Made by a program: the position numbers and the translations under genes. Below, piece after piece: positions 4,599 through 18,123 of a DNA stretch of 20,361 nucleotides; position 1 is the first letter of the stretch; each line of letters begins with the position of its first letter. The notes under the pieces were generated by a model. That model was given only the letters and a program-made list of their open reading frames with translations, searched no databases and was not told the origin of the DNA. Source of the DNA: a virus; the IMG/VR virus record IMGVR_UViG_3300044611_001939, positions 1 to 20,361 of that record. One strand, written 5' to 3'.

Positions 4599-5828
4599 TT
4601 ATTTTGGTAAATAATCTGGAGACTGTGGAGCAGAGGCTCCTGGTGCATATCTATTTCTTAAAGCTTCAGCTATCTGATCTTGCTTTTTCATAGCTGGACC
4701 ACGTGAAGTTGGTTGAGTTTGCTGTATTTGTCTTTGTAAATCAGCAATTGTAGCCATTGTATTTCTCATTTCCTTATCAAGCACTTTACTAATGCCTGCA
4801 ATGGGCTGGAATACCATTTGTAGTGAAGCAATGCCTCGCTGGAAATCTTGAGGTCTGTAATCTTTCATTTGATTATTACCTCTTGCTGCATCAAAAAGAG
4901 CATCAGCGCCATAATATCCGGCTAATCCACCACCAAGTGCTGCAGCACCACGGCCAAGCATTTGTCTACCAGTTAATGCTGGAGTTGGATTTGGAGTTGG
5001 ATTTGGAGTTGGATTTGGAGTTGGATTTGGAGTTGGATTTGGAGTTGGATTTGGAGTTGGATTTGGAGTTGGATTTGGAGTTGGATTTGGAGTTGGAGTT
5101 GGAGTTGGATTTGGAGTTGGATTTGGAGTTGGATTTGGAGTTGGAGTTGGAGTTGGATTTGGAGTTGGATTTGTTCCACCGCCACCGCCAGAAGTGCCAC
5201 CACCAACTAAGCCAACAGCAGCTCCTCCTTTGTATGGAACAGCGCTCTTAAATGCAGCTACAAATTGTGCATTATCCATACCAGCACCCGCTGGATCAGT
5301 AACTCTTAAGTTACCCTTTCCTACCATTCTTTCAAGAAGATTTTTGTCTTGATTATATAACTGAATCATTTGAGAATTTCCAGCAGGGTCTGTTACTTTT
5401 AATAAAGATCTTTCCAAACCTCCAGCACGTGATGCAATAACGTCAAACTTGAAATTTTGTCTTTGATCTGCAGGAATAGCCTGTATCGCAGAAATAGCAC
5501 TGTCTCCTTGGAATCTTAAGGCTCCAAGTTGAGACATTCTACCTTCTCTAAATCTATTCCATCGCTCTCTTAATTTTAATGCAGCTTCTGGATCTTGTGG
5601 ATCTATTTTTGCTTGAGCGCGGCTACCAGAGTCACTTTGCAACCAATCTTCAAAAGACGGAAGTTGAGCAGCAATAGAAGGGTCATACAAAGATCCCTGC
5701 GCTACCTTCACTACGCCATCACCTTCTGTGTAAAATAAGCCTTTATCTAGGCCAACCTGAAGCCACTCACGGGAGCTCATTTTAATCATGGGTTTAGACG
5801 AATTTGCTGTTTTAATAAAACGTGCCAT
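4599..5828 (-). CDS. WL-motif protein with (Asn-Pro-Thr-Pro)n stalk
   Basis: This 409-residue protein has four visible parts. First is a short basic leader ([13 protein letters not shown]), followed by the shared motif [17 protein letters not shown] at residues 14-30. A globular region reaches about residue 205. A Gly-rich hinge then leads into a 64-residue Asn-Pro-Thr-Pro repeat (about 220-283), which would form an extended polyproline-like rod. The C-terminal region (about 284-409) opens with [20 protein letters not shown] and contains [13 protein letters not shown]; both are matched in the paralogue at 5890-6618 (GRGLAAGAGGVGGYLLADWI and DIAGISKSLDKSM). GGAGG lies about 10 bp before the ATG at 5828. 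The repeat is a multiple of three bases throughout, so copy-number change would alter rod length without frameshift. I cannot name the family; a virion component is inferred. Confidence 0.83.
4981..5172. repeat. 12-bp tandem repeat encoding NPTP units
   Basis: Sixteen near-perfect units of GGAGTTGGATTT (plus-strand reading) run without interruption for 192 bp. Two units are the variant GGAGTTGGAGTT, which adds an extra Thr-Pro pair. On the minus strand the array codes for the Asn-Pro-Thr-Pro rod of the 4599-5828 protein. Both the 12-bp and embedded 6-bp periods keep the reading frame. Confidence 0.97.
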
Positions 5829-7037: not shown

Positions 7038-7712
7038 TTATGATGCGGGGTATTGATTGGGGGTGTAATCTATCATTAAACTTACTGTTATATCGTAAAA
7101 ATGTTTTCTCCAAGTGGCTGATGTTATCCACTTATAACGGATATCTTCATTTTTCTTTTTTTCAGCAATAATGTCATTTACGTCTCTACCAGTTTCTTCA
7201 CATTCCTTCATGAGCTCTGCAGTCACTGGATGTGTTTGAACCCCTTGTGGGGCTTCCTTTTTCACGACAAGAACTCTGTCGTTCTCTGGTCGATTCGTAA
7301 TATCAATATCGTACACCTTTATAATATTAAGAGGAAAAACGTCTTTGTTGTCTTCCCCAAAAACTAATTTTCTTACATTTGATCTAAATGCTTCATTGCA
7401 CAAAGATGACAACTCATTTGATAAGCTTATTCTCCATTGTTCAAAAGTATCAATATCTTCTTTTGTTGGATCTTCAGCAATAGTAAGATAGTGAAGAACT
7501 TTTTTACATTCTACGAGATCATCCGAGTCGAACTGGAACTGAGTATTCCATGGTTTTGTTGATCGCATCTTTCCGTCTTTGATGTGAAAATCAACGTTGA
7601 CTGCATCTTGAGAAAAGTTTGGATTAGAAATTGCGTTAAAAATCTCTTTAGCAACAGATTGCTTAAGTAATTCCGAAAAAAACTCTTGTAGCTTAACTGG
7701 AGTGTTGTTCAT
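7038..7712 (-). CDS. Unrecognised 224-aa phage protein
   Basis: I do not recognise this protein. It looks like a soluble, mixed alpha/beta globular protein with acidic patches (AEDPTKEDIDTFEQWR), a middle segment with repeated beta-like strands (VRKLVFGEDNKDVFPLNIIK, then VYDIDITNRPENDRVLVVKK) and a C-terminal ITSATWRKHFYDITVSLMID. There is no known catalytic motif, signal peptide or membrane helix. Its ATG (7712-7710, minus) overlaps the ATG of the rightward ATPase (7711-7713) within one CATG, so each gene's ribosome-binding region lies inside the other's coding sequence. Its own Shine-Dalgarno is weak (GAGA). It is followed by the 6962-6998 terminator, so it is probably a single-gene transcript. 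A partnership with the ATPase is possible but unsupported by sequence. Confidence 0.8.
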   Translation of the reverse strand: MNNTPVKLQEFFSELLKQSVAKEIFNAISNPNFSQDAVNVDFHIKDGKMRSTKPWNTQFQFDSDDLVECKKVLHYLTIAEDPTKEDIDTFEQWRISLSNELSSLCNEAFRSNVRKLVFGEDNKDVFPLNIIKVYDIDITNRPENDRVLVVKKEAPQGVQTHPVTAELMKECEETGRDVNDIIAEKKKNEDIRYKWITSATWRKHFYDITVSLMIDYTPNQYPAS

Positions 7713-8595
7713 GTATTATCTCAAAAGTATTGATTTTACAAATTTTTGTGGTTACAAAAAATTGTCTTTAGATTTCTTCAAAGACAACAAGCCTTTGCCT
7801 CTTACTGTATTTTTCGGACCAAATGGAACTGGAAAAAGTACTGTATTGAGTGGAATAAGAATGTTGTCAAATCCATATCAGTTTTTTGGAAGAGAGAATG
7901 ATATGTATTTTAGAAAAATGGTGTTTCACGAAGACTACGACCCCACATACTCTGGCTTTATTAAATCAGTCAGAGATCTTAACTTAACAGCTCACTTTAT
8001 TGATACAGAAAATAAAACATATAAAGTTATTTTAGATCAAAACGGAATTATAGAATCAGAGTTACCAAGATATAATTCAGATCAAGAGGGATGGAGTGTT
8101 TTTACTGATGCAGATCATCCTATGAATATGAACAAATTTCAAATTAGAAAAGAAGCTGCAGAAAAATTTCTTGAAATAGCTTCATACGTATACGGGTTAC
8201 CATTATCTTTAGGAAAAGAAATAACAACTTATGATCTTGAAGACAGTGCTACGTTTTATCAAGATTTAATCATTACAAAGAAAGAAGTTAAAGTACACTT
8301 CAAAAGAATGAGTGATGGAGAAAAGAAAATAGCAACTTTGCTCCGTCACATATGTAATGAATCAGTTTTAAATCCTAGTAATATATATCTTATTGACAAT
8401 GCAGAAATGCATATTTATTTCAAGAGACATCCAGGTTTAGTAAAAAGATTAATATCTTGTTTTCCTGATAAACAGTTCATAACTACTTCTCACAGTTCCA
8501 ATTTTATTAATGCAGTAAAGTCACATGTGGGAGAAGAAGCATTATTTGATTTAGAAAAAGTACACGGGTTCGACTCTGTTAGTTATGACATGTGA
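7711..8595 (+). CDS. ABC/SMC-like AAA ATPase domain protein
   Basis: This 294-residue protein is a single ATP-binding domain of the SMC/RecF/OLD-type ABC ATPase class. Visible motifs are Walker A GPNGTGKST (residues 36-44), a signature-like MSDGEKK (200-206), a Walker B strand IYLIDNAEMH (225-234) and a switch histidine in TTSHSS (His261). At 294 residues it has no room for a TOPRIM nuclease domain or long coiled-coil arms. The residue after the Walker B Asp is Asn230, where active family members normally have Glu, although Glu232 follows. I start it at ATG 7711, with GGAG 8 bp upstream; a GTG at 7702 would add three residues and lacks a ribosome-binding site. It is the only enzyme-like gene in the window. 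The substrate is unknown; DNA repair, defence or defence-counteracting roles are all possible. Confidence 0.88.
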   Translation: MYYLKSIDFTNFCGYKKLSLDFFKDNKPLPLTVFFGPNGTGKSTVLSGIRMLSNPYQFFGRENDMYFRKMVFHEDYDPTYSGFIKSVRDLNLTAHFIDTENKTYKVILDQNGIIESELPRYNSDQEGWSVFTDADHPMNMNKFQIRKEAAEKFLEIASYVYGLPLSLGKEITTYDLEDSATFYQDLIITKKEVKVHFKRMSDGEKKIATLLRHICNESVLNPSNIYLIDNAEMHIYFKRHPGLVKRLISCFPDKQFITTSHSSNFINAVKSHVGEEALFDLEKVHGFDSVSYDM

Positions 8596-8742
8596 ACTTT
8601 CTACCACTGAACCCGAAGGGTTCTGTGCCGAGGGGCGAAGCCCCGAGGAATAATTAAAGTCAATGTCGCTTCGCTCCATTTGTCGATGTCACTCCAAAGT
8701 CGTGACATCGAACAGTAATTGATTGTATGTGCTTGGGTTTGT

Positions 8743-8755
8743 AATCCGTTTCTGT
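8743..8755 (+). repeat. Direct repeat copy 1, AATCCGTTTCTGT
   Basis: The 13-base sequence AATCCGTTTCTGT occurs here and again at 8852-8864, 109 bp apart in the same orientation, both inside the structured intergenic region. Each copy lies next to a hairpin arm. Confidence 0.85.
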
Positions 8756-8851
8756 TCCCTGTGAAACAGGGAGATAGCCCCAGGTCAATCGCCACTTTAT
8801 AATAATTCTGAAACTCTTTCATATAAAGGACACTCTCCCATCTGTTTTCAG

Positions 8852-8864
8852 AATCCGTTTCTGT
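8852..8864 (+). repeat. Direct repeat copy 2, AATCCGTTTCTGT
   Basis: Second copy of the 13-base direct repeat at 8743-8755. Its first three bases are the end of the TTTCAGAAT stem arm, and it ends 13 bp before the extended -10 promoter candidate. Confidence 0.85.
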
Positions 8865-8877
8865 AATTATTGTTTAA

Positions 8878-8886
8878 TGTTATAAT
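8878..8886 (+). promoter_or_regulatory. Extended -10 promoter candidate for the fibre operon leader
   Basis: TGTTATAAT is a perfect extended -10 element (TG-N-TATAAT); the hexamer 17 bp upstream (TTTCTG) is a poor -35. A start near 8893 would place the structured 8918-9117 domain in a leader of about 270 nt ahead of the first fibre-cluster gene at 9165. The same TGN-TATAAT pattern is present at 1947-1955. Activity is inferred. Confidence 0.5.
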
Positions 8887-8917
8887 GATATTTTTGTATA
8901 AATTATTTGCAACAACG

Positions 8918-9117
8918 GTTAGTTGCCAGCAAGTTTTTACAGAACTTAATTTCGCTGTCCAATAGTTGAGTCAGTTCCGGTTCGACCTTGACGACCCTTC
9001 CACCGCATTTGGAAATGCGCTACCAGAGTTGTTTGGGACTGGTTACCGCTGGCCAATTGAACTCTGTGCCAACTAACGACTAAATTTTTGTAGTAATGCT
9101 GTAACAAAACTACAAAA
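8918..9117 (+). ncRNA. Candidate structured RNA or leader, multibranch 3' domain
   Basis: GTTAGTTG (8918-8925) pairs perfectly with CAACTAAC (9070-9077), and directly inside it GCCAGC (8925-8930) pairs with GCTGGC (9048-9053), closing a large loop. Within the loop are AAGTT/AACTT (8931-8935/8943-8947), GTCA/TGAC around a GGTTCGACC turn (8970-8992), the near-perfect hairpin CGCATTTGGAAATGCG (9004-9019) and ACCAG/CTGGT (9022-9026/9039-9043). A further 8-bp stem TTTTGTAG/CTACAAAA (9086-9093/9110-9117) follows. The arrangement looks like a folded multihelix junction. It may be a free-standing RNA, the 3' half of a longer RNA that starts near 8609, or the 5' leader of the 9165 operon. No known riboswitch or intron core was recognised. 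Confidence 0.5.
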
Positions 9118-9164
9118 TCTATATCGGCACAAAGACAAAATAAACTTTTTTAGTAATTAATCTT

Positions 9165-9353
9165 ATGAGTTTATCCCTTTTTCCAAATGTTGTAAATAAA
9201 AAACTTTTTGTACAAGATACGGCTCCTGACTATGCTACTGCTGGTGATCAATGGTTTAATACCTTGAAAGGAATTTTACTTATATTTGTAAGAGACGACA
9301 AGGGTGTCGGTTATTGGATCGAAACTGGCTCATCTGTCAGTGATGGAGGTTAA
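9165..9353 (+). CDS. Small fibre-cluster protein with a GD-x-W-x-NT module
   Basis: This 62-residue protein is essentially one module: TAPDYATAGDQWFNTLKG, then a strand and GYWIETGSSVS. The pattern [ST]-x-P...GD-x-W-[FLY]-NT...W also occurs in the next gene (GDRWLNT) and twice in the 705-aa protein (GDRWYNT, GDKWFNT), so it belongs to the same adhesin system. I recall such short modules in cyanophage-type fibre and baseplate-appendage proteins. It is the first gene after the structured intergenic region, and no Shine-Dalgarno is visible before its ATG, while the next gene has a strong one. It ends with GG, two bases before the next start. It may be a small fibre adaptor; the exact role is unknown. 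Confidence 0.72.
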   Translation: MSLSLFPNVVNKKLFVQDTAPDYATAGDQWFNTLKGILLIFVRDDKGVGYWIETGSSVSDGG

Positions 9354-9355
9354 TC

Positions 9356-9643
9356 ATGTTTCAATTCCCCAATCCCTCAGAAACTACAAGCTTTTTTATA
9401 AATGGCAAGGAATGGAGATGGGTTGGTTCTTATTGGGAATTAGTCAAAACAGCAGTGAGTGGTGGCGGTATTTCTTTTTATCAACAGGATGATGCACCTA
9501 TTGAAGCTAAATTAGGAGATAGGTGGTTAAACACTCAGAATCTTACTGAATATATTTATGTTCAAATGTCTGCAAATCCAGACGTGTTTCAATGGATGGA
9601 TTTAACTGGAGATTATCCCGGAGATACTTTTGTTGGAGATTAA
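9356..9643 (+). CDS. Small fibre-cluster protein with FNG-W and GD-x-W-x-NT modules
   Basis: This 95-residue protein joins two modules found elsewhere in the cluster. Residues 1-28 (FPNPSETTSFFINGKEWRW) match the N-termini of the proteins at 9648 and 13024 (FPSNP...FNGKKW and FPTSP...FNGRTW). Residues about 42-80 (DDAPIEAKLGDRWLNTQNL) match the GD-x-W-x-NT module. The start is well placed: GGAGG lies 6 bp before the ATG and the previous TAA is two bases upstream, so the two genes are translated together. It ends in an acidic GDTFVGD tail. Both modules are probably small beta-rich domains that bind other fibre subunits or surface ligands (inference). No signal peptide, as expected for a phage structural protein. 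Confidence 0.78.
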   Translation: MFQFPNPSETTSFFINGKEWRWVGSYWELVKTAVSGGGISFYQQDDAPIEAKLGDRWLNTQNLTEYIYVQMSANPDVFQWMDLTGDYPGDTFVGD

Positions 9644-9647
9644 ATAA

Positions 9648-11765
9648 ATGGCAGTAAAACCTTTAGGCTTTCCAAGCAATCCAACTGATGGTCAGCAGTA
9701 TACATTCAATGGTAAAAAATGGATGTACAATTCTGACATTCCAGGATGGGAAGCTCTTCAGGTTACTGATGTTAAAACAATTAAGAAAGATACCACAAGT
9801 AGTCAAGTACTGTTTGGCAATGACGATACTATTGGAAGTTCGGCTTTTACATTAGGTGATAACATCACCATGAATGCTGTAACTAAAACAATATCAGTAG
9901 CTGATGGTGCTGGTAGTGGTCTTGATGCTGACTTTTTACACTCAGTAAGTGGAAGTCGATTCACTGAAAATTTGAAGTCAGGTATTTTGTATGGCGGATC
10001 ACTTTCCGTTAATACATCTAATAATGCAAAGTTTGATGTTGCCGCTGGTTCAGGGATAATAGTGTCAACTACTGGAGGTGGATACGGATCAACTGCAAGT
10101 CCATCCACTACAATTACTACAATTACTTGGTCTGCTCAGTCTTCAATAACAGTAAGCAATATAGGATCATATGACACTACTTGGATTTATGTTGATGAAG
10201 ACGGAATTGTTCAACAACAAAACGGTGCATTTACTGATGAAAATTATAAACAGTATATAATACTTGGAGCACTCGTTCATCCAAATAGGACAACGATAGC
10301 ATTTGTTTCAAATCTTCCTACCGTTGTATATAATACATTAAATCAGTATGATGAATTTATAAGAAAACTTGGTCCAGCAAAAATATCTGGTCACAGAATT
10401 TCTGCAAATGGTTCAAATCTTTTACTTGATAGAAGTTCTGGAGTTTCTTATATTATAGGCGGAAATTACGTTACAGATTCTTCTCATCCAAATGTTGTTA
10501 GTGATGCAGGGACTACTGCTGCAACAATTTATAGAATGTATTCTGACGGTGCTGGTGGCTACACGACTGTGTCAAATACAGCAATTGATCCAAATTCATA
10601 TGATAATGATTCTGGAACTTTGCAATCTGTGAGTTCTTCAGAATGGACAATACAGAGAGTTTATTATTTTCCAAAGAAAACAAACACACTTGCGATATAT
10701 TATGGAAAAGTAAAATACAATTCTCTTGCAGAGGCCCTATCTGGAGTTGCAAATGAAGTGTGGACTGAATCTAATAACACAAAAGACAAAACTATATTTT
10801 GCGCGTATCTTATAGTTAAAGGAAACGCTTCTCAGCTAAACAACAGTTCAGATGCAAAAATAATTCAAGGAAGTATATTTAGAGAAATCGTTTCATCTGG
10901 TAGTGGTGGTGGCGGTGCCGTAGAGTACATATCAGATCTTCTTGATGTTCAAACTTCTGCTCCAGTTATTGGAGAAGCTCTTATTTGGAACGGTTCAAAT
11001 TGGGTAAATCAGCGTGCTATAACTTATATATCAGAGCTTGACGATGTGCAAACATCGTCTCCTACAAATGGACAGTTTCTTGTATGGAACGGTTCTAATT
11101 GGACAAATCAATCTCTCACCGGAAAAATATCTTATGTATCATCTCCCACTGCTCCAAGTACTACTTTATACAACGCAGGAGATAGATGGTATAATACAAC
11201 TACTGGTATTGAATATACATTAATAGATGATGGCAGTGATCTTTTTTGGGTCAATATATATTTGAGTCCAAATGAAGACTACATTATGAGTGAACTCACT
11301 ACTTTTATGAAGTACGTCAGTTCTAGTTCTACTCCAAGCGTTGCTTCTTATAAGGCTGGAGACAAATGGTTTAATACTTCTACCGGTGTTGAATATACGC
11401 TTGTAGATGATGGTAGTGACAAGCAGTGGGTAAACTTAAATACAAATTTTATTGCACACGTTCATCCGATCTATGAGATTACTTTTCCAACATCAACAGT
11501 TGCTTCATCTACATACTCCGTTCAAGATACAGATTATTATGTTGGAGTAAATTACGCTGGAATTGTGACTATAACACTTCCATCAGGATCTGCTGGTAAA
11601 ATATTTGTAATCAAAGATGAATCTGGAAATGCAAGTTATTTAAATCGTTACATAAAAATACAAGGATCTGGTGGTCAATTAGTAGACGGAAGTGCGTATG
11701 CTATTCTTAATATTAATTATGGATCTTTAACTTTGATTTATAGAAATGGCTGGAGAATCATATGA
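9648..11765 (+). CDS. Modular tail fibre/adhesin protein, 705 aa
   Basis: This is a multi-module phage adhesin. It opens with FPSNPTDGQQYTFNGKKW (residues 8-25). A long beta-rich region (about 100-400) resembles tail appendage proteins, with KQYIILGALVHPNRTTIAFV and a stretch ending in IIQGSIFRE. After a Gly-rich hinge come two tandem modules with DVQTS and WNGSNW (about 424-490), then two tandem GD-[RK]-W-[YF]-NT modules with EYTL[IV]DDGSD (about 496-615). The C-terminal 100 residues (VTITLPSGSAGKIFVIKDES) are a common phage fibre end domain. GGAG lies 9 bp before the start, and the stop overlaps the next start as ATGA. It probably forms a trimeric fibre or baseplate appendage for host contact. 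The modules recur in genes on both sides. Confidence 0.85.
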   Translation: MAVKPLGFPSNPTDGQQYTFNGKKWMYNSDIPGWEALQVTDVKTIKKDTTSSQVLFGNDDTIGSSAFTLGDNITMNAVTKTISVADGAGSGLDADFLHSVSGSRFTENLKSGILYGGSLSVNTSNNAKFDVAAGSGIIVSTTGGGYGSTASPSTTITTITWSAQSSITVSNIGSYDTTWIYVDEDGIVQQQNGAFTDENYKQYIILGALVHPNRTTIAFVSNLPTVVYNTLNQYDEFIRKLGPAKISGHRISANGSNLLLDRSSGVSYIIGGNYVTDSSHPNVVSDAGTTAATIYRMYSDGAGGYTTVSNTAIDPNSYDNDSGTLQSVSSSEWTIQRVYYFPKKTNTLAIYYGKVKYNSLAEALSGVANEVWTESNNTKDKTIFCAYLIVKGNASQLNNSSDAKIIQGSIFREIVSSGSGGGGAVEYISDLLDVQTSAPVIGEALIWNGSNWVNQRAITYISELDDVQTSSPTNGQFLVWNGSNWTNQSLTGKISYVSSPTAPSTTLYNAGDRWYNTTTGIEYTLIDDGSDLFWVNIYLSPNEDYIMSELTTFMKYVSSSSTPSVASYKAGDKWFNTSTGVEYTLVDDGSDKQWVNLNTNFIAHVHPIYEITFPTSTVASSTYSVQDTDYYVGVNYAGIVTITLPSGSAGKIFVIKDESGNASYLNRYIKIQGSGGQLVDGSAYAILNINYGSLTLIYRNGWRII

Positions 11766-12982
11766 GTTTTTTATTCAACAATAGAGTTAGTTTTAATGGA
11801 GATGCAGTTGATGGATTTGGTAGATTAAAAGTCAGCCAGCCTTTTACTTTATTCGATTCTCAACATCGTTATCAGGAAAATGATAAATGGAACACTTTTA
11901 CTACTACTGGAGGTTCTACTTTATTTAAGTTAAATGAAAGTGCTTTAGATCTTATTGTGAATACAGTTTCAGGAGCAAAAGTCTATAGAGAAACAAACAG
12001 AGTTTTTCCATATCAACCTGGAAAGTCATTACTTGTTCTTAGCACATTTGTTCTGGCGAGTGGTCAATCAAATTTGCGTCAAAGAGTTGGTTATTTTGGA
12101 ACACAAAATGGTGTATATTTAGAACAATATAATGGAATCAATTATCTTGTTCTTAGAACTTATGTAAGTGGGGCAGTTGATGACTCAACGTACAAAATTG
12201 CTCAAGCTGACTGGAATGGTGATAAATTTGATGGTAGTGGACCTAGTGGTAGAACTATAGATTTTACAAAAGCAAACATACTTTGGTGTGATATTGAATG
12301 GCTTGGTGTCGGTGATGTTCGTTGTGGTTTTTACGTAGATGGTAGACCAGTAATAGCTCACACTTTTCATAATGACAATCAAAATACAACTACATACATG
12401 ACCACTGCTTCTCTTCCACTTAGAATGGAAATTGAGAATTTAGGTCCCACTTCAGTTTCTTCTACTGCAAAACAAATCTGCAATAGTGTAATGTCTGAGG
12501 CAGGATTTGAGGGATTTGCTCGTCGCTATAATGTAAGTAAGAGTGGTTCTACATTTACAACTTTGACATCTGCCGGATATCAGTATCCTGCCATATCTTT
12601 GAGGATGAATTCTAGCAGACTCGATTCTGTTATTATTCCTTCTAATATAAGTGCTGTGCTTGATGAACAAGCTTCTAATAAGCCTGATGTGGTTCAATAT
12701 AGAATATTATTAAATGCAACAATTTCTGGAGGTAGTTGGACAACTCACTATAATGGAAATGTTGACTACAATATAACGGCGTCATCTGTTACTGGAGGAA
12801 CTGATATTATTGGAGGTTATATTAGTAGTAGTGGATCTTTAGATATTTCTCAAATTAATGATTTTAATTTTCAGCTTGGCAGAACTATGACAGGAGGAAG
12901 TGATACGTTTACTTTAACATTTACTGCAGTTAATTCTGGTGCTCAAATTTTATCAGATATGTCTTGGTTTGAAATAATTTAA
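11762..12982 (+). CDS. Virion structural protein of the GRLKVSQPFTLFDS family
   Basis: This 406-residue protein belongs to a family I recall from cyanophage-type T4-like myoviruses. Its marks are DGFGRLKVSQPFTLFDSQ near the N-terminus (about residues 18-35), RVFPYQPGKSLLVLSTFV (about 81-98), LRQRVGYFGTQNGVYLE, then ILWCDIEWLGVGDVRCGFYV and TTTYMTTASLPLRMEIEN. It is beta-rich, with a C-terminal region resembling a carbohydrate-binding or fibre-tip fold (ends LSDMSWFEII). I believe members are virion structural proteins, probably tail-fibre or baseplate associated; the biochemical role is not known to me. It is coupled to the upstream fibre gene by ATGA, with GGAG 6 bp before the start. It is near full family length and shows no break. 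Confidence 0.85.
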   Translation: MSFLFNNRVSFNGDAVDGFGRLKVSQPFTLFDSQHRYQENDKWNTFTTTGGSTLFKLNESALDLIVNTVSGAKVYRETNRVFPYQPGKSLLVLSTFVLASGQSNLRQRVGYFGTQNGVYLEQYNGINYLVLRTYVSGAVDDSTYKIAQADWNGDKFDGSGPSGRTIDFTKANILWCDIEWLGVGDVRCGFYVDGRPVIAHTFHNDNQNTTTYMTTASLPLRMEIENLGPTSVSSTAKQICNSVMSEAGFEGFARRYNVSKSGSTFTTLTSAGYQYPAISLRMNSSRLDSVIIPSNISAVLDEQASNKPDVVQYRILLNATISGGSWTTHYNGNVDYNITASSVTGGTDIIGGYISSSGSLDISQINDFNFQLGRTMTGGSDTFTLTFTAVNSGAQILSDMSWFEII

Positions 12983-14490: not shown

Positions 14491-17400
14491 ATGGCAACAA
14501 ACCCAACAATTCAATTTAAGAGAAAAACAAGTGCAGCAGGGGCTCCTGCATCTCTCAGTGCAGGTGAACCAGCATTCAATACTGTTGAAAATTTCCTATA
14601 TGTTGGTAATGGCTCTGCAGTTAAGTGGGTTGGTGCCGAGATTCTTGACCACACAACGACTGCATTTACAAGTACGACAAGTCTTGCTACTCGTAAGGCA
14701 ATTGGTGATATTTTTGCTCCATTAAGAAGTCCAGTTTTTACTGGAACAATTACAGGAAATAATGTAGTTCTTGCTGGAGATATAGCTGTTAATGGTGGTG
14801 ACATCACTTCTACTTCCAGTACATTTAATTTGTTAGCAAGTAAAACTGATGGCTTTACTCTTAATATTGGTCCTAATACTGGATTTAGTAATACTACCAC
14901 AATAAATATAGGAGCTACTTCTGTTGATGGAGCAACTACTGACATCAATATTGGCCATGGTTACTCAGGTACAAGAAACGGGAATATTACTATTAGTAGT
15001 AAAGCAGTTACCATTGGCGCTGGTGCAGGTATAACTATTGACACTTCCTCTATTGGCACTGATACAGCTACTACATTTAATTTACTAAATTCTACAGTTA
15101 CAAATGCAAATATATTTGGTGCTGCTGCTACTTTTGTAGTTGGAGCAAGCGGATCTGGAACCGCCAGTATACGAAACGCTACAACTAGATTTGGTGGAAC
15201 TTCTGGTGGTGCAACTATTGCAACACAAACAACAAGCGGATTAAATCATCTTAGTATTATTCCTTCAGGAAACTTAAGACTTTCAGCAACACGTTCAGAT
15301 CTTTCTGGTCTTGGTACTCAGGGCACTATTACGATAGTGAACGGAAGCGGTGGAACTGCAACAAGTGTCAGTGGAGCCCCGCTTTTGCTTGGCGATTATG
15401 CTGATTCATTTGGTAATCCTCAGCCTGGTGAACTTAGAATACTAGAATCAGGTGGTTCTAATTATACTGGATTTAAAGCTCAGGCAATGAGTTCTGATTA
15501 TATCTATACTCTGCCTTCCGCATTCCCTGGATCTTCTGGTTATGTGCTACAATCTGATACTTCAGGCAATATGTCATGGGCAGCTCCTGCTTCATCTGCA
15601 AGCGTAGGGGTTACTGCAACAAGTGCAAGCACAAATTATAAAATGATATTTACAGATGTTAATGCTTCAAATACATCTGCATCATTGTTCATTGATACAA
15701 CTTCTGGCATAGTATTTAATCCTTCTGCTAATAATCTTACTGTTGCTGGAAGTGTTTATGCAAATGCAAGCTTGTATCTAGGTGCAACATCTACTGGGCT
15801 CAATAAAATATATATTCCAGAAACTGATCCAACTGGTGGGTTTGCAATTAATGAATTAGCAAATGATATTGATCATATTTACATAGAAAAACAATTTCCA
15901 GGAGCAGCTGGTCCATTTAATAATGTTTATTATATGAAAGTCGGAGATGCTACAACGTATGGAGGCTACGATGCTTTCCCTGTTGGTCAGCCTATTAATG
16001 TAACAGACTATGAGAGCAATGTTTCGTCGTTTGTCAATATAGGCGCTGGTGGATATCTCGCAGCAACCAATACGGGATATTCTTATTACAAAACTATAAA
16101 CATTGGTCCAGATACAGGAACTGGCAAGACAACATACATTAATCTTGGAGCCGTCAATGGCACATCATCCAACTTGACCACAGTTTATGGTGCCATGTCT
16201 GTTACTGGCAATATTTCAACCAATCAAAATCTTGTTGTCAATGGTGGTACTGTAACCAGTACTGCAACTACATTTAATCTTTTAAACACAACAGTCACAA
16301 ATGCAAATGTTCTTGGAGACTTAAGAACATTGTCAATAGGCAATAATACGACTACTGGTCAAGTCGTGAATATGTTTACTAATGCAGCTGGTACGTCTAC
16401 TTATAATTTTGCTACAGGTAATACTGCTAATGGTTCTACAAAAACTATAAATATCGGACAAAATAGTGGAGCTGGAGTAACAAATGTAAATATTGGTGGT
16501 GGCTTAAACGGTAAAACATTGATTGAATCTTCTATTATAGATCTAAATTCTGCAACTATTTCAAGTAACGCAACTGTTTTAAGTCTTTTTGCTACAAATC
16601 TTACAGTTCAAGCTTTTCATAATGCTCAAACTCTTTCATTAGGTGCCACTACAGGAAACGCAACTATTAGAAATGCTAACACAAACATTAATGGGACTCT
16701 GACCGTTACAGGTGCTACAGTGATTCAAGGAGCGCTTACGCTAAACAGCTCTCTTACTGTAACCGGGGCTACAACTTTTCAGGGTGCTCTTTCTACAAAC
16801 AGTACTCTTTCAGTTACAAGTAATGCAACGTTTGGGTCTAATATCATAGTAAATGGTGGTAATATACAAACCACTTCTTCTACGTTTAATCTAGTTACCA
16901 ATACTGCATCTGTAATTAATATTGGAACTACATCAGGTAGTTCTATAAATATAGGAAATGGTGGATCTACAACTCAATTTAATGGTAATATAGAAATTAA
17001 AGGCGCTTCTGATACTTCTACTGTTGGAGCTGGTTCTTCTACAAACGTTAATTTGTTTAATACTACAGTAACTGGTTTGAATATCGGAGCTTCTGCAAAT
17101 ATTATCAATATAGGATCTTCAAATAGTACAACCTATTTTGCAGGTGGAGTAGATATTGCAAGTGCTAAATCATTTATGGTCAATGGCACAGCAGTTCTTA
17201 GCTCTTCCAGTTTAGGAACAACAGTTACGAATTCTAGCTTAACGAGAATAGACAGTTCCAATCTTACTCTAACTGGAGACCTTGCTGTAAATGGCGGAGA
17301 CGTAACATCTACGGCCACTACTTTCAATCTTCTGAATTCTACAGTTACTGGTCTTAATATTGGTGGTGGTGCTAATACAGTTAATATAGGATCTACAACT

Positions 17401-18123
17401 GCTGTTATTAATCTTGGTACTGGCACCAACGGCGCTACAGTTAACGTTAAGGGTAACCTTGTTGTTGATGGCTCAACCACTACAGTAAATTCCACTACTG
17501 TCACCATTGATGATTTGAATATCGTTCTTGCAGATGGTCAGACAACTGCTGCAGGTGTCGATGGTGCAGGTATAAGTCTTGGTACTTCTGGAATCACATG
17601 GAATTATGTACACGGTGGTGGTACTTTTGCCAACTGGACATCAACTGAAAATCTTGATTTAACAACTGGTAAGTCTTACAAGATTGGTAATCAATCAGTA
17701 CTTTCTTCATCAACCCTTGGTCCATCAGTAGTCACTTCTTCGCTTACTCAGGTTGGTACGATTGCCACTGGTACATGGAGAGGTTCTGTTATAGCTGCCA
17801 ACTGGGGTGGTACAGGATTTGGAACATATACTGTTGGTCAGCTTCTGTATGCTGACACTACAACAAGCTTGGCAAAATTGACAGCTGCTGCAACTCCTGG
17901 ATCTCTTCTTGCAAGCAATGGTGCAGGTGTTGCTCCAGAATATAAATTTATATCTCTTACAAACGGAACTGTTACGTCTTCTTCTGGAACTCTTACACTG
18001 GCTATACAAAATGCTGCTGCAGACGGTTCTACTAAGGGTCTTGCTTCGTTTAACTCAACTCAGTTTGACGATTCATCTGGCTTGATTACTCTTGATACAA
18101 TTGATGGTGGAACTTACGCTTAA
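14491..18123 (+). CDS. Large repetitive tail fibre protein, 1210 aa
   Basis: This is a giant phage fibre. The N-terminal 50 residues (MATNPTIQFKRKTSAAG, LSAGEPAFNTVENFLYVGNG) match a domain common at fibre N-termini, related to the one on major tropism determinant proteins. The body is a long series of beta-repeat units with VNGG[DTN][IV]-x-[ST]T-x-[ST]TFNL, at about residues 111, 195, 594, 798 and 944, alternating with NIG/INIG strands, so a beta-solenoid shaft is likely. The C-terminal region has VDGSTTTVNSTTVTIDDLNI and VGTIATGTWRGSVIAANWGG, then GGTYA at the end. GAGG lies 10 bp before the ATG and a strong terminator follows. It probably forms a trimeric host-binding fibre. The repeats are shared with the partial gene at 18664. 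Confidence 0.88.
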   Translation: MATNPTIQFKRKTSAAGAPASLSAGEPAFNTVENFLYVGNGSAVKWVGAEILDHTTTAFTSTTSLATRKAIGDIFAPLRSPVFTGTITGNNVVLAGDIAVNGGDITSTSSTFNLLASKTDGFTLNIGPNTGFSNTTTINIGATSVDGATTDINIGHGYSGTRNGNITISSKAVTIGAGAGITIDTSSIGTDTATTFNLLNSTVTNANIFGAAATFVVGASGSGTASIRNATTRFGGTSGGATIATQTTSGLNHLSIIPSGNLRLSATRSDLSGLGTQGTITIVNGSGGTATSVSGAPLLLGDYADSFGNPQPGELRILESGGSNYTGFKAQAMSSDYIYTLPSAFPGSSGYVLQSDTSGNMSWAAPASSASVGVTATSASTNYKMIFTDVNASNTSASLFIDTTSGIVFNPSANNLTVAGSVYANASLYLGATSTGLNKIYIPETDPTGGFAINELANDIDHIYIEKQFPGAAGPFNNVYYMKVGDATTYGGYDAFPVGQPINVTDYESNVSSFVNIGAGGYLAATNTGYSYYKTINIGPDTGTGKTTYINLGAVNGTSSNLTTVYGAMSVTGNISTNQNLVVNGGTVTSTATTFNLLNTTVTNANVLGDLRTLSIGNNTTTGQVVNMFTNAAGTSTYNFATGNTANGSTKTINIGQNSGAGVTNVNIGGGLNGKTLIESSIIDLNSATISSNATVLSLFATNLTVQAFHNAQTLSLGATTGNATIRNANTNINGTLTVTGATVIQGALTLNSSLTVTGATTFQGALSTNSTLSVTSNATFGSNIIVNGGNIQTTSSTFNLVTNTASVINIGTTSGSSINIGNGGSTTQFNGNIEIKGASDTSTVGAGSSTNVNLFNTTVTGLNIGASANIINIGSSNSTTYFAGGVDIASAKSFMVNGTAVLSSSSLGTTVTNSSLTRIDSSNLTLTGDLAVNGGDVTSTATTFNLLNSTVTGLNIGGGANTVNIGSTTAVINLGTGTNGATVNVKGNLVVDGSTTTVNSTTVTIDDLNIVLADGQTTAAGVDGAGISLGTSGITWNYVHGGGTFANWTSTENLDLTTGKSYKIGNQSVLSSSTLGPSVVTSSLTQVGTIATGTWRGSVIAANWGGTGFGTYTVGQLLYADTTTSLAKLTAAATPGSLLASNGAGVAPEYKFISLTNGTVTSSSGTLTLAIQNAAADGSTKGLASFNSTQFDDSSGLITLDTIDGGTYA

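Follow-up and report, generated by a model that had tools for sequence, protein, structure and literature searches.

Only a handful of very large structured phage RNAs are known and their functions are open. One of them, ROOL, is an octameric RNA nanocage, and a further structured RNA is known in the phi29-type packaging pRNA, which is about 174 nt and adjoins packaging genes. A ROOL example of 659 nt has been described, with a complex structure including pseudoknots, encoded by phages and prophages and with no known protein partner or function (PMC12286853). The window presented here is a record of 20,361 bases from an uncultured virus, and its intergenic region at 8596-9164 (569 bp) appears to encode an RNA that is comparable to ROOL and GOLLD in its size, its ornate structure and its phage origin (PMC12286853), GOLLD being another large phage RNA whose function is open, and that resembles OLE RNA as a large ornate RNA and the phi29-type pRNA as a phage-encoded structured RNA. 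It differs from all four in having no Rfam match. Moreover, unlike ROOL, it occupies a fixed slot beside fibre genes in one uncultured phage lineage; unlike the phi29-type pRNA, no packaging genes were recognised around it in the window; and OLE RNA, for its part, comes from extremophile bacteria and has dedicated protein partners (PMC12286853, in part). ROOL and GOLLD often lie near tRNAs, a usual but not obligatory setting, whereas no tRNA, nor any tmRNA, was detected by ARAGORN in the 20.4 kb of the window.

Rfam 15 gave no match to the window at gathering thresholds and only chance matches up to E 10. At lax thresholds (E up to 10) on both strands, ROOL, GOLLD, group I and group II introns, RNase P and tmRNA were all missing from the window and from contigs L003, L009 and L067, and nothing was found in 66.7 kb of related loci. 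The earlier note on this DNA had seen no ROOL or GOLLD signature and had named these two, group I introns and tmRNA for the comparison. In 11 related records, themselves fragments, neither the reverse transcriptase domain that marks DGRs and retrons (PF00078) nor the TROVE domain that marks Y RNA/Ro60 systems (PF05731) was detected. A literature search yielded no description of such an RNA. Matching neither the ROOL nor the GOLLD model, the RNA was filed as a new family rather than as a member of either, and the compensatory changes in its helices across homologues, by which a new structured ncRNA family is recognised, are described below.

The ORF list bears out that this is the sole large gap of the window, the remaining ones being of about 80 bp or less. 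It is bordered by a RecF/SMC-like ATPase ORF (7702-8595, plus strand; Pfam AAA_15), which adjoins the gap in all four clades described below, and by a small fibre-like ORF (9165-9353, plus strand), the first gene of the fibre operon, whose start codon at 9165 has no strong Shine-Dalgarno sequence. The gap holds no conserved ORF, the longest stop-free stretches varying in frame and length among homologues. On either strand it folds more stably than its dinucleotide-shuffled versions (z = -3.9 for plus, -3.4 for minus). Folding energy by itself leaves the strand of the RNA undecided.

The ATPase and the first fibre ORF served as queries against IMG/VR contigs, and in other contigs of uncultured phages the two genes again enclose a gap comparable to that of the window, the contigs falling into four clades. 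Clade I comprises the window, L002, L003/L004/L008, L005 and L006/L007, with gaps of about 546-605 nt, and the three further clades are L025/L026, L009 and L064/L067; the comparison rests on about nine distinct sequences, all of them metagenomic. In more distant relatives of the ATPase, mostly from jumbo phages (L028-L033, L078-L080), the gap is missing and the ATPase gene is followed by ordinary genes; as these relatives occur without the RNA alongside, the ATPase is independent of it. DNA similarity searches with the window, L005, L025 and L067 as queries found no related gap in sequenced or isolate phages. Pattern scans of viral_contigs (pseudoknot and TGACGA motifs) returned the known slot only, besides chance matches that fail the pseudoknot descriptor, a pattern scan of genome_contigs gave 0 matches, and an ATPase profile run on genome_contigs retrieved distant ATPases only. 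Additionally, covariance model R1 found no second copy of the RNA above chance in 19 whole records.

The core of the putative RNA is an H-type pseudoknot at 8791-8854 on the minus strand, in which helix a (8795-8801/8822-8828) is crossed by helix b (8805-8813/8846-8854). Helix b had previously been read as a simple 9-bp hairpin at 8805-8854; its pairing stands, but as one half of the pseudoknot. Both helices covary, with two-sided changes in 6 of 16 pairs, and two more compensatory changes separate L064 from L067 in helix b. The single-stranded blocks GAUGG..UGUCC, UGAAA and AGUGGC (minus strand) are conserved. A descriptor composed of GCCACT, helix a, GGWCA, CCAT and helix b recovers the pseudoknot at this slot in each of the four clades; the 1.22 Mb of fetched loci contain no other match, and shuffles contain 0. 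Outside the pseudoknot and the H10 region described below, the L009 and L064/L067 clades align weakly (model R2, E-value = 0.03-0.16). The sequence CCGTTTCTGT occurs twice, at 8746-8755 and 8855-8864, flanking hairpin H4 and the pseudoknot and reading ACAGAAACGG on the minus strand; both copies are retained in clade I and missing from the other clades.

Around this core, a series of minus-strand helices keeps its pairing despite turnover of the sequence. In the 5′ part of the RNA, hairpin H11 (9088-9115) has its stem sequence fully replaced between relatives such as L006 and L015, the latter an independent fragment outside the model that still retains the hairpin with a different sequence. Helix H10 (9024-9030/9060-9066, 7 bp) shows two-sided changes in 5 of 7 pairs, and is followed by a conserved GUAGC, which is weaker in L064/L067; a model of its domain (R2) recovers L015, which it does not contain, on the minus strand (E-value = 2e-6), and the best match of L067 is also on the minus strand (E-value = 0.03). 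Hairpin H9hp (9004-9009/9014-9019) carries two-sided changes in 4 of 6 pairs and the strand-diagnostic helix J/J2 (8962-8975/8991-9003) in 4 of 11, and the latter encloses a terminal hairpin at 8979-8981/8985-8987, within 8962-9003. H8 (8927-8930/8954-8957 and 8931-8935/8943-8947) has an inner stem whose pairing is conserved with differing sequence in the window, L002, L003 and L006, with mismatches in L005, and H7 (8909-8913/8922-8926) reads GCAAC/GTTGC in the window and L003 and GCAAAT/ATTTGC in L002 and L005. Next to the pseudoknot, and linked to it by a conserved GGGGAUAU-like segment, lies H4 (8756-8772), which pairs fully with a different sequence in L005 (8 bp) and L006 (11 bp).

Toward the 3′ end, H3 (8683-8692/8702-8711) shows two-sided changes in 4 of 10 pairs with 100% of cells paired; it is the hairpin reported before at 8683-8711, and it has 10 bp. 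H2 (8632-8636/8640-8644) has two-sided changes in 3 of 5 pairs, its stem reading by eye GGGGC/GCCCC, GTGGC/GCCAC, ACCGC/GCGGT or GACGC/GCGTC across relatives, and in H1 (8609-8614/8618-8623), at the 3′ end of the RNA, one pair is CG, AT or GC. The three GAA triloops recorded earlier do exist on the plus strand (8615-8617, 8637-8639 and 8763-8765), but in the relatives they are not conserved in hairpins 2 and 4, where AAA, TTTA, GGAG or GT are found. The nested stems proposed at 8732-8784 and 8918-9077 (CGGTTAGTTG/CAACTAACG) are absent by eye from the close relative L003 and are probably due to chance.

Taken by region, the domain at 8962-9066 shows two-sided changes in 14 of 27 pairs with 95.5% of cells paired in seven sequences (slid-partner controls 24-42%), and H1-H3 show them in 8 of 21 pairs with 100% of cells paired (slid controls 28-41%). 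Since folds and visual inspection guided the choice of pairs, these percentages are biased toward structure, and more weight belongs to the two-sided changes, to the slid controls and to the pair of naturally swapped alleles presented below. As for the suggestion that a large ornate phage RNA fills the gap, the compensatory changes found in the homologues support it strongly, and none of the refuting conditions named in the earlier note that could be applied overturned it. The comparison shows a multi-helix fold with an H-type pseudoknot core, which four clades of one uncultured phage lineage carry in a fixed slot flanked by ATPase gene and fibre operon.

The strand was decided by comparing how the same helices pair when read as plus- or minus-strand RNA, with the two alignments used for the counts built separately. 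In helix J, the most variable helix, every one of the seven sequences forms the seven core pairs when read as minus-strand RNA, G-C, A-U and G-U taking turns, whereas on the plus strand the G-U cells turn into A-C mismatches; 96.1% of its cells are paired on the minus strand vs. 74.0% on the plus strand, and for the whole domain at 8962-9066 the values are 95.5% vs. 83.2%. The loop within H10 is a GNRA tetraloop hairpin on the minus strand in L026, L064 and L067, and GNRA loops occur on this strand only. Since H1-H3 and helix a carry no G-U pairs on either strand, the call draws mainly on the 5′ (minus) domain. Encoding of the RNA on the minus strand is thus well supported by the comparative data, which contradict the G-U pair cited by the earlier note in favour of the plus strand, a strand that was probably wrong. 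A GTCA/TGAC stem near 8970-8992 in plus orientation was dropped, as the local helix J pairs fully only on the minus strand, and a likeness of CTATTGGAC between the plus strand of L067 and the minus strand of clade I was judged to be chance. A minus-strand RNA therefore points away from the fibre operon and converges with the ATPase gene, and it is most likely directed toward the latter rather than being a leader of the fibre mRNA. The direction of the neighbouring genes would have misfiled it as just such a leader, which illustrates that the strand of such RNAs needs comparative testing.

A natural exchange of alleles allowed the structure to be compared within a nearly constant background. 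Contig L002 and the window share 99-100% identity across the ATPase gene as far as 8776, and they do so once more over about 2 kb beginning at 9657; the sharply bounded block of about 880 bp in between (8777-9656) has only about 73% identity. This block joins the 5′ two thirds of the RNA, including the pseudoknot, with the first two fibre ORFs (9165-9353 and 9356-9643), so that RNA and small fibre ORFs were exchanged together. Among 51 tested pairs, 11 are changed: seven of them on both sides without loss of pairing (1.6 expected by chance), three on one side, all giving G-U on the minus strand only and A-C on the plus strand, and one broken, at a stem end. The exchange supports a conserved structure predicted on the minus strand.

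Helices are conserved among homologues from 9131 to 8605, and the RNA is placed at approximately 8600-9145 on the minus strand, with the 5′ end near 9131-9150 and the 3′ end near 8600. It would be closed by P1, an 8-bp helix between 9124-9131 (5′ strand) and 8624-8631 (3′ strand). A match at 8625-8631/9124-9130 had been noticed earlier and given little weight; it exists and is one of 8 bp, and its complementarity is kept in all five clade-I sequences, with the register shifting to UGCCGAG/CUCGGCA in L006 and with a bulge in L002 and L005. Because the 3′ strand is invariant, this is conservation and not covariation, and P1 as terminal closing helix is supported, but more weakly than the inner helices. 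H1, P1 and H2 are contiguous with zero linkers, and P1, so placed, defines a compact, self-contained unit. No intrinsic terminator was found after the RNA, and the search for a conserved minus-strand promoter gave weak consensus matches only.

Among the possible explanations, we consider it probable that 8600-9145 represents a stand-alone minus-strand phage ncRNA of about 530 nt with a pseudoknot core, belonging to a new family of large RNAs. Its promoter would lie next to the fibre operon, in the divergent region, and its transcript would end after hairpin H1; during infection it may keep a stable fold and act in trans, whether alone, as an oligomer or together with a protein, as has been proposed for ROOL and GOLLD. 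The fuller proposal, a new trans-acting family unrelated to ROOL and GOLLD in sequence and structure, with a conserved pseudoknot core and the slot between ATPase and fibre operon, which serves in an RNA assembly or RNP in infection, is one to which we give an even chance. The RNA could alternatively be the 5′ leader, for example an attenuator or antiterminator, of a long transcript that crosses the ATPase gene in antisense direction before reaching the minus-strand operon (7712 to 295), which it would control. That operon begins within the head of the ATPase gene (7712 overlaps 7702) and must accordingly have its promoter in that gene or past it, and the failure to find an intrinsic terminator past the RNA fits such read-through. 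About 900 nt of antisense ATPase would, however, separate the leader from its first gene, P1 makes the RNA a self-contained unit and neither an expression platform nor a terminator was seen, which leaves a leader of this kind doubtful. Somewhat more doubtful still is a cis-antisense regulator, a minus-strand RNA that would overlap the fibre mRNA at its 5′ region and, by pairing with it, govern fibre expression: the divergent arrangement, the short spacing of about 35-50 nt from P1 to the fibre ATG and the exchange of the 5′ two thirds of the RNA together with the first two fibre ORFs would suit it, but overlap alone suffices for such control, and the elaborate conserved structure with its pseudoknot core would be left unexplained.

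The remaining explanations are unlikely. A plus-strand 5′ leader of the fibre operon, the orientation implied before, agrees with both flanking genes being on the plus strand and with a structure that stops about 35 nt short of a fibre start codon without a strong Shine-Dalgarno sequence, but the diagnostic helix pairs at 74% on that strand vs. 96% on the minus strand, the three pairs altered on one side only between near-identical phages would be A-C there, and the GNRA loops would be lost; we regard it as unlikely. That the RNA belongs to a known family (ROOL, GOLLD, group I or II intron, RNase P or tmRNA) but has diverged beyond the reach of its model is slightly less likely again, its size and phage context being like those of ROOL and GOLLD but the lax-threshold searches of the window, the three relatives and the related loci, as well as ARAGORN, having returned nothing. 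Least likely of all is an element acting as DNA, such as inverted repeats forming a recombination or packaging site. Many stems are perfectly paired, mini-hairpins of the d(GCGAAGC) type are present and the exchange breakpoint (8776/8777) falls inside the element, all of which a DNA site would accommodate, but three features are signatures of RNA: the G-U substitutions, which agree with a single strand, the GNRA loops and the H-type pseudoknot, which is conserved. The stand-alone minus-strand RNA preferred here offers a pseudoknot core, a fixed slot, an allele exchange that tests its structure and no Rfam counterpart, and it raises the question of whether ornate phage RNAs are a recurrent solution.

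Some further features of the window were recorded. The ATPase gene and the minus-strand gene at 7038-7712 overlap head-to-head by 11 bp (7702-7712), and because of this overlap the promoter of each must lie inside or beyond the other. The ATPase and the ORF at 740-1354 have almost no or no relatives in sequenced phages. The product of 11762-12982 is a virion structural protein (phrog_1645) with about 41-45% identity to cyanophage and HMO-2011 proteins. The large fibre ORF at 14491-18123 has at its start a near-threshold match (26.1 bits, cutoff 26.3) to Mtd_N, the N-terminal domain of a phage tropism determinant. Finally, the ORF at 4599-5828 contains an NPTPNPTP low-complexity repeat (4929-5207), which differs among near-identical contigs.
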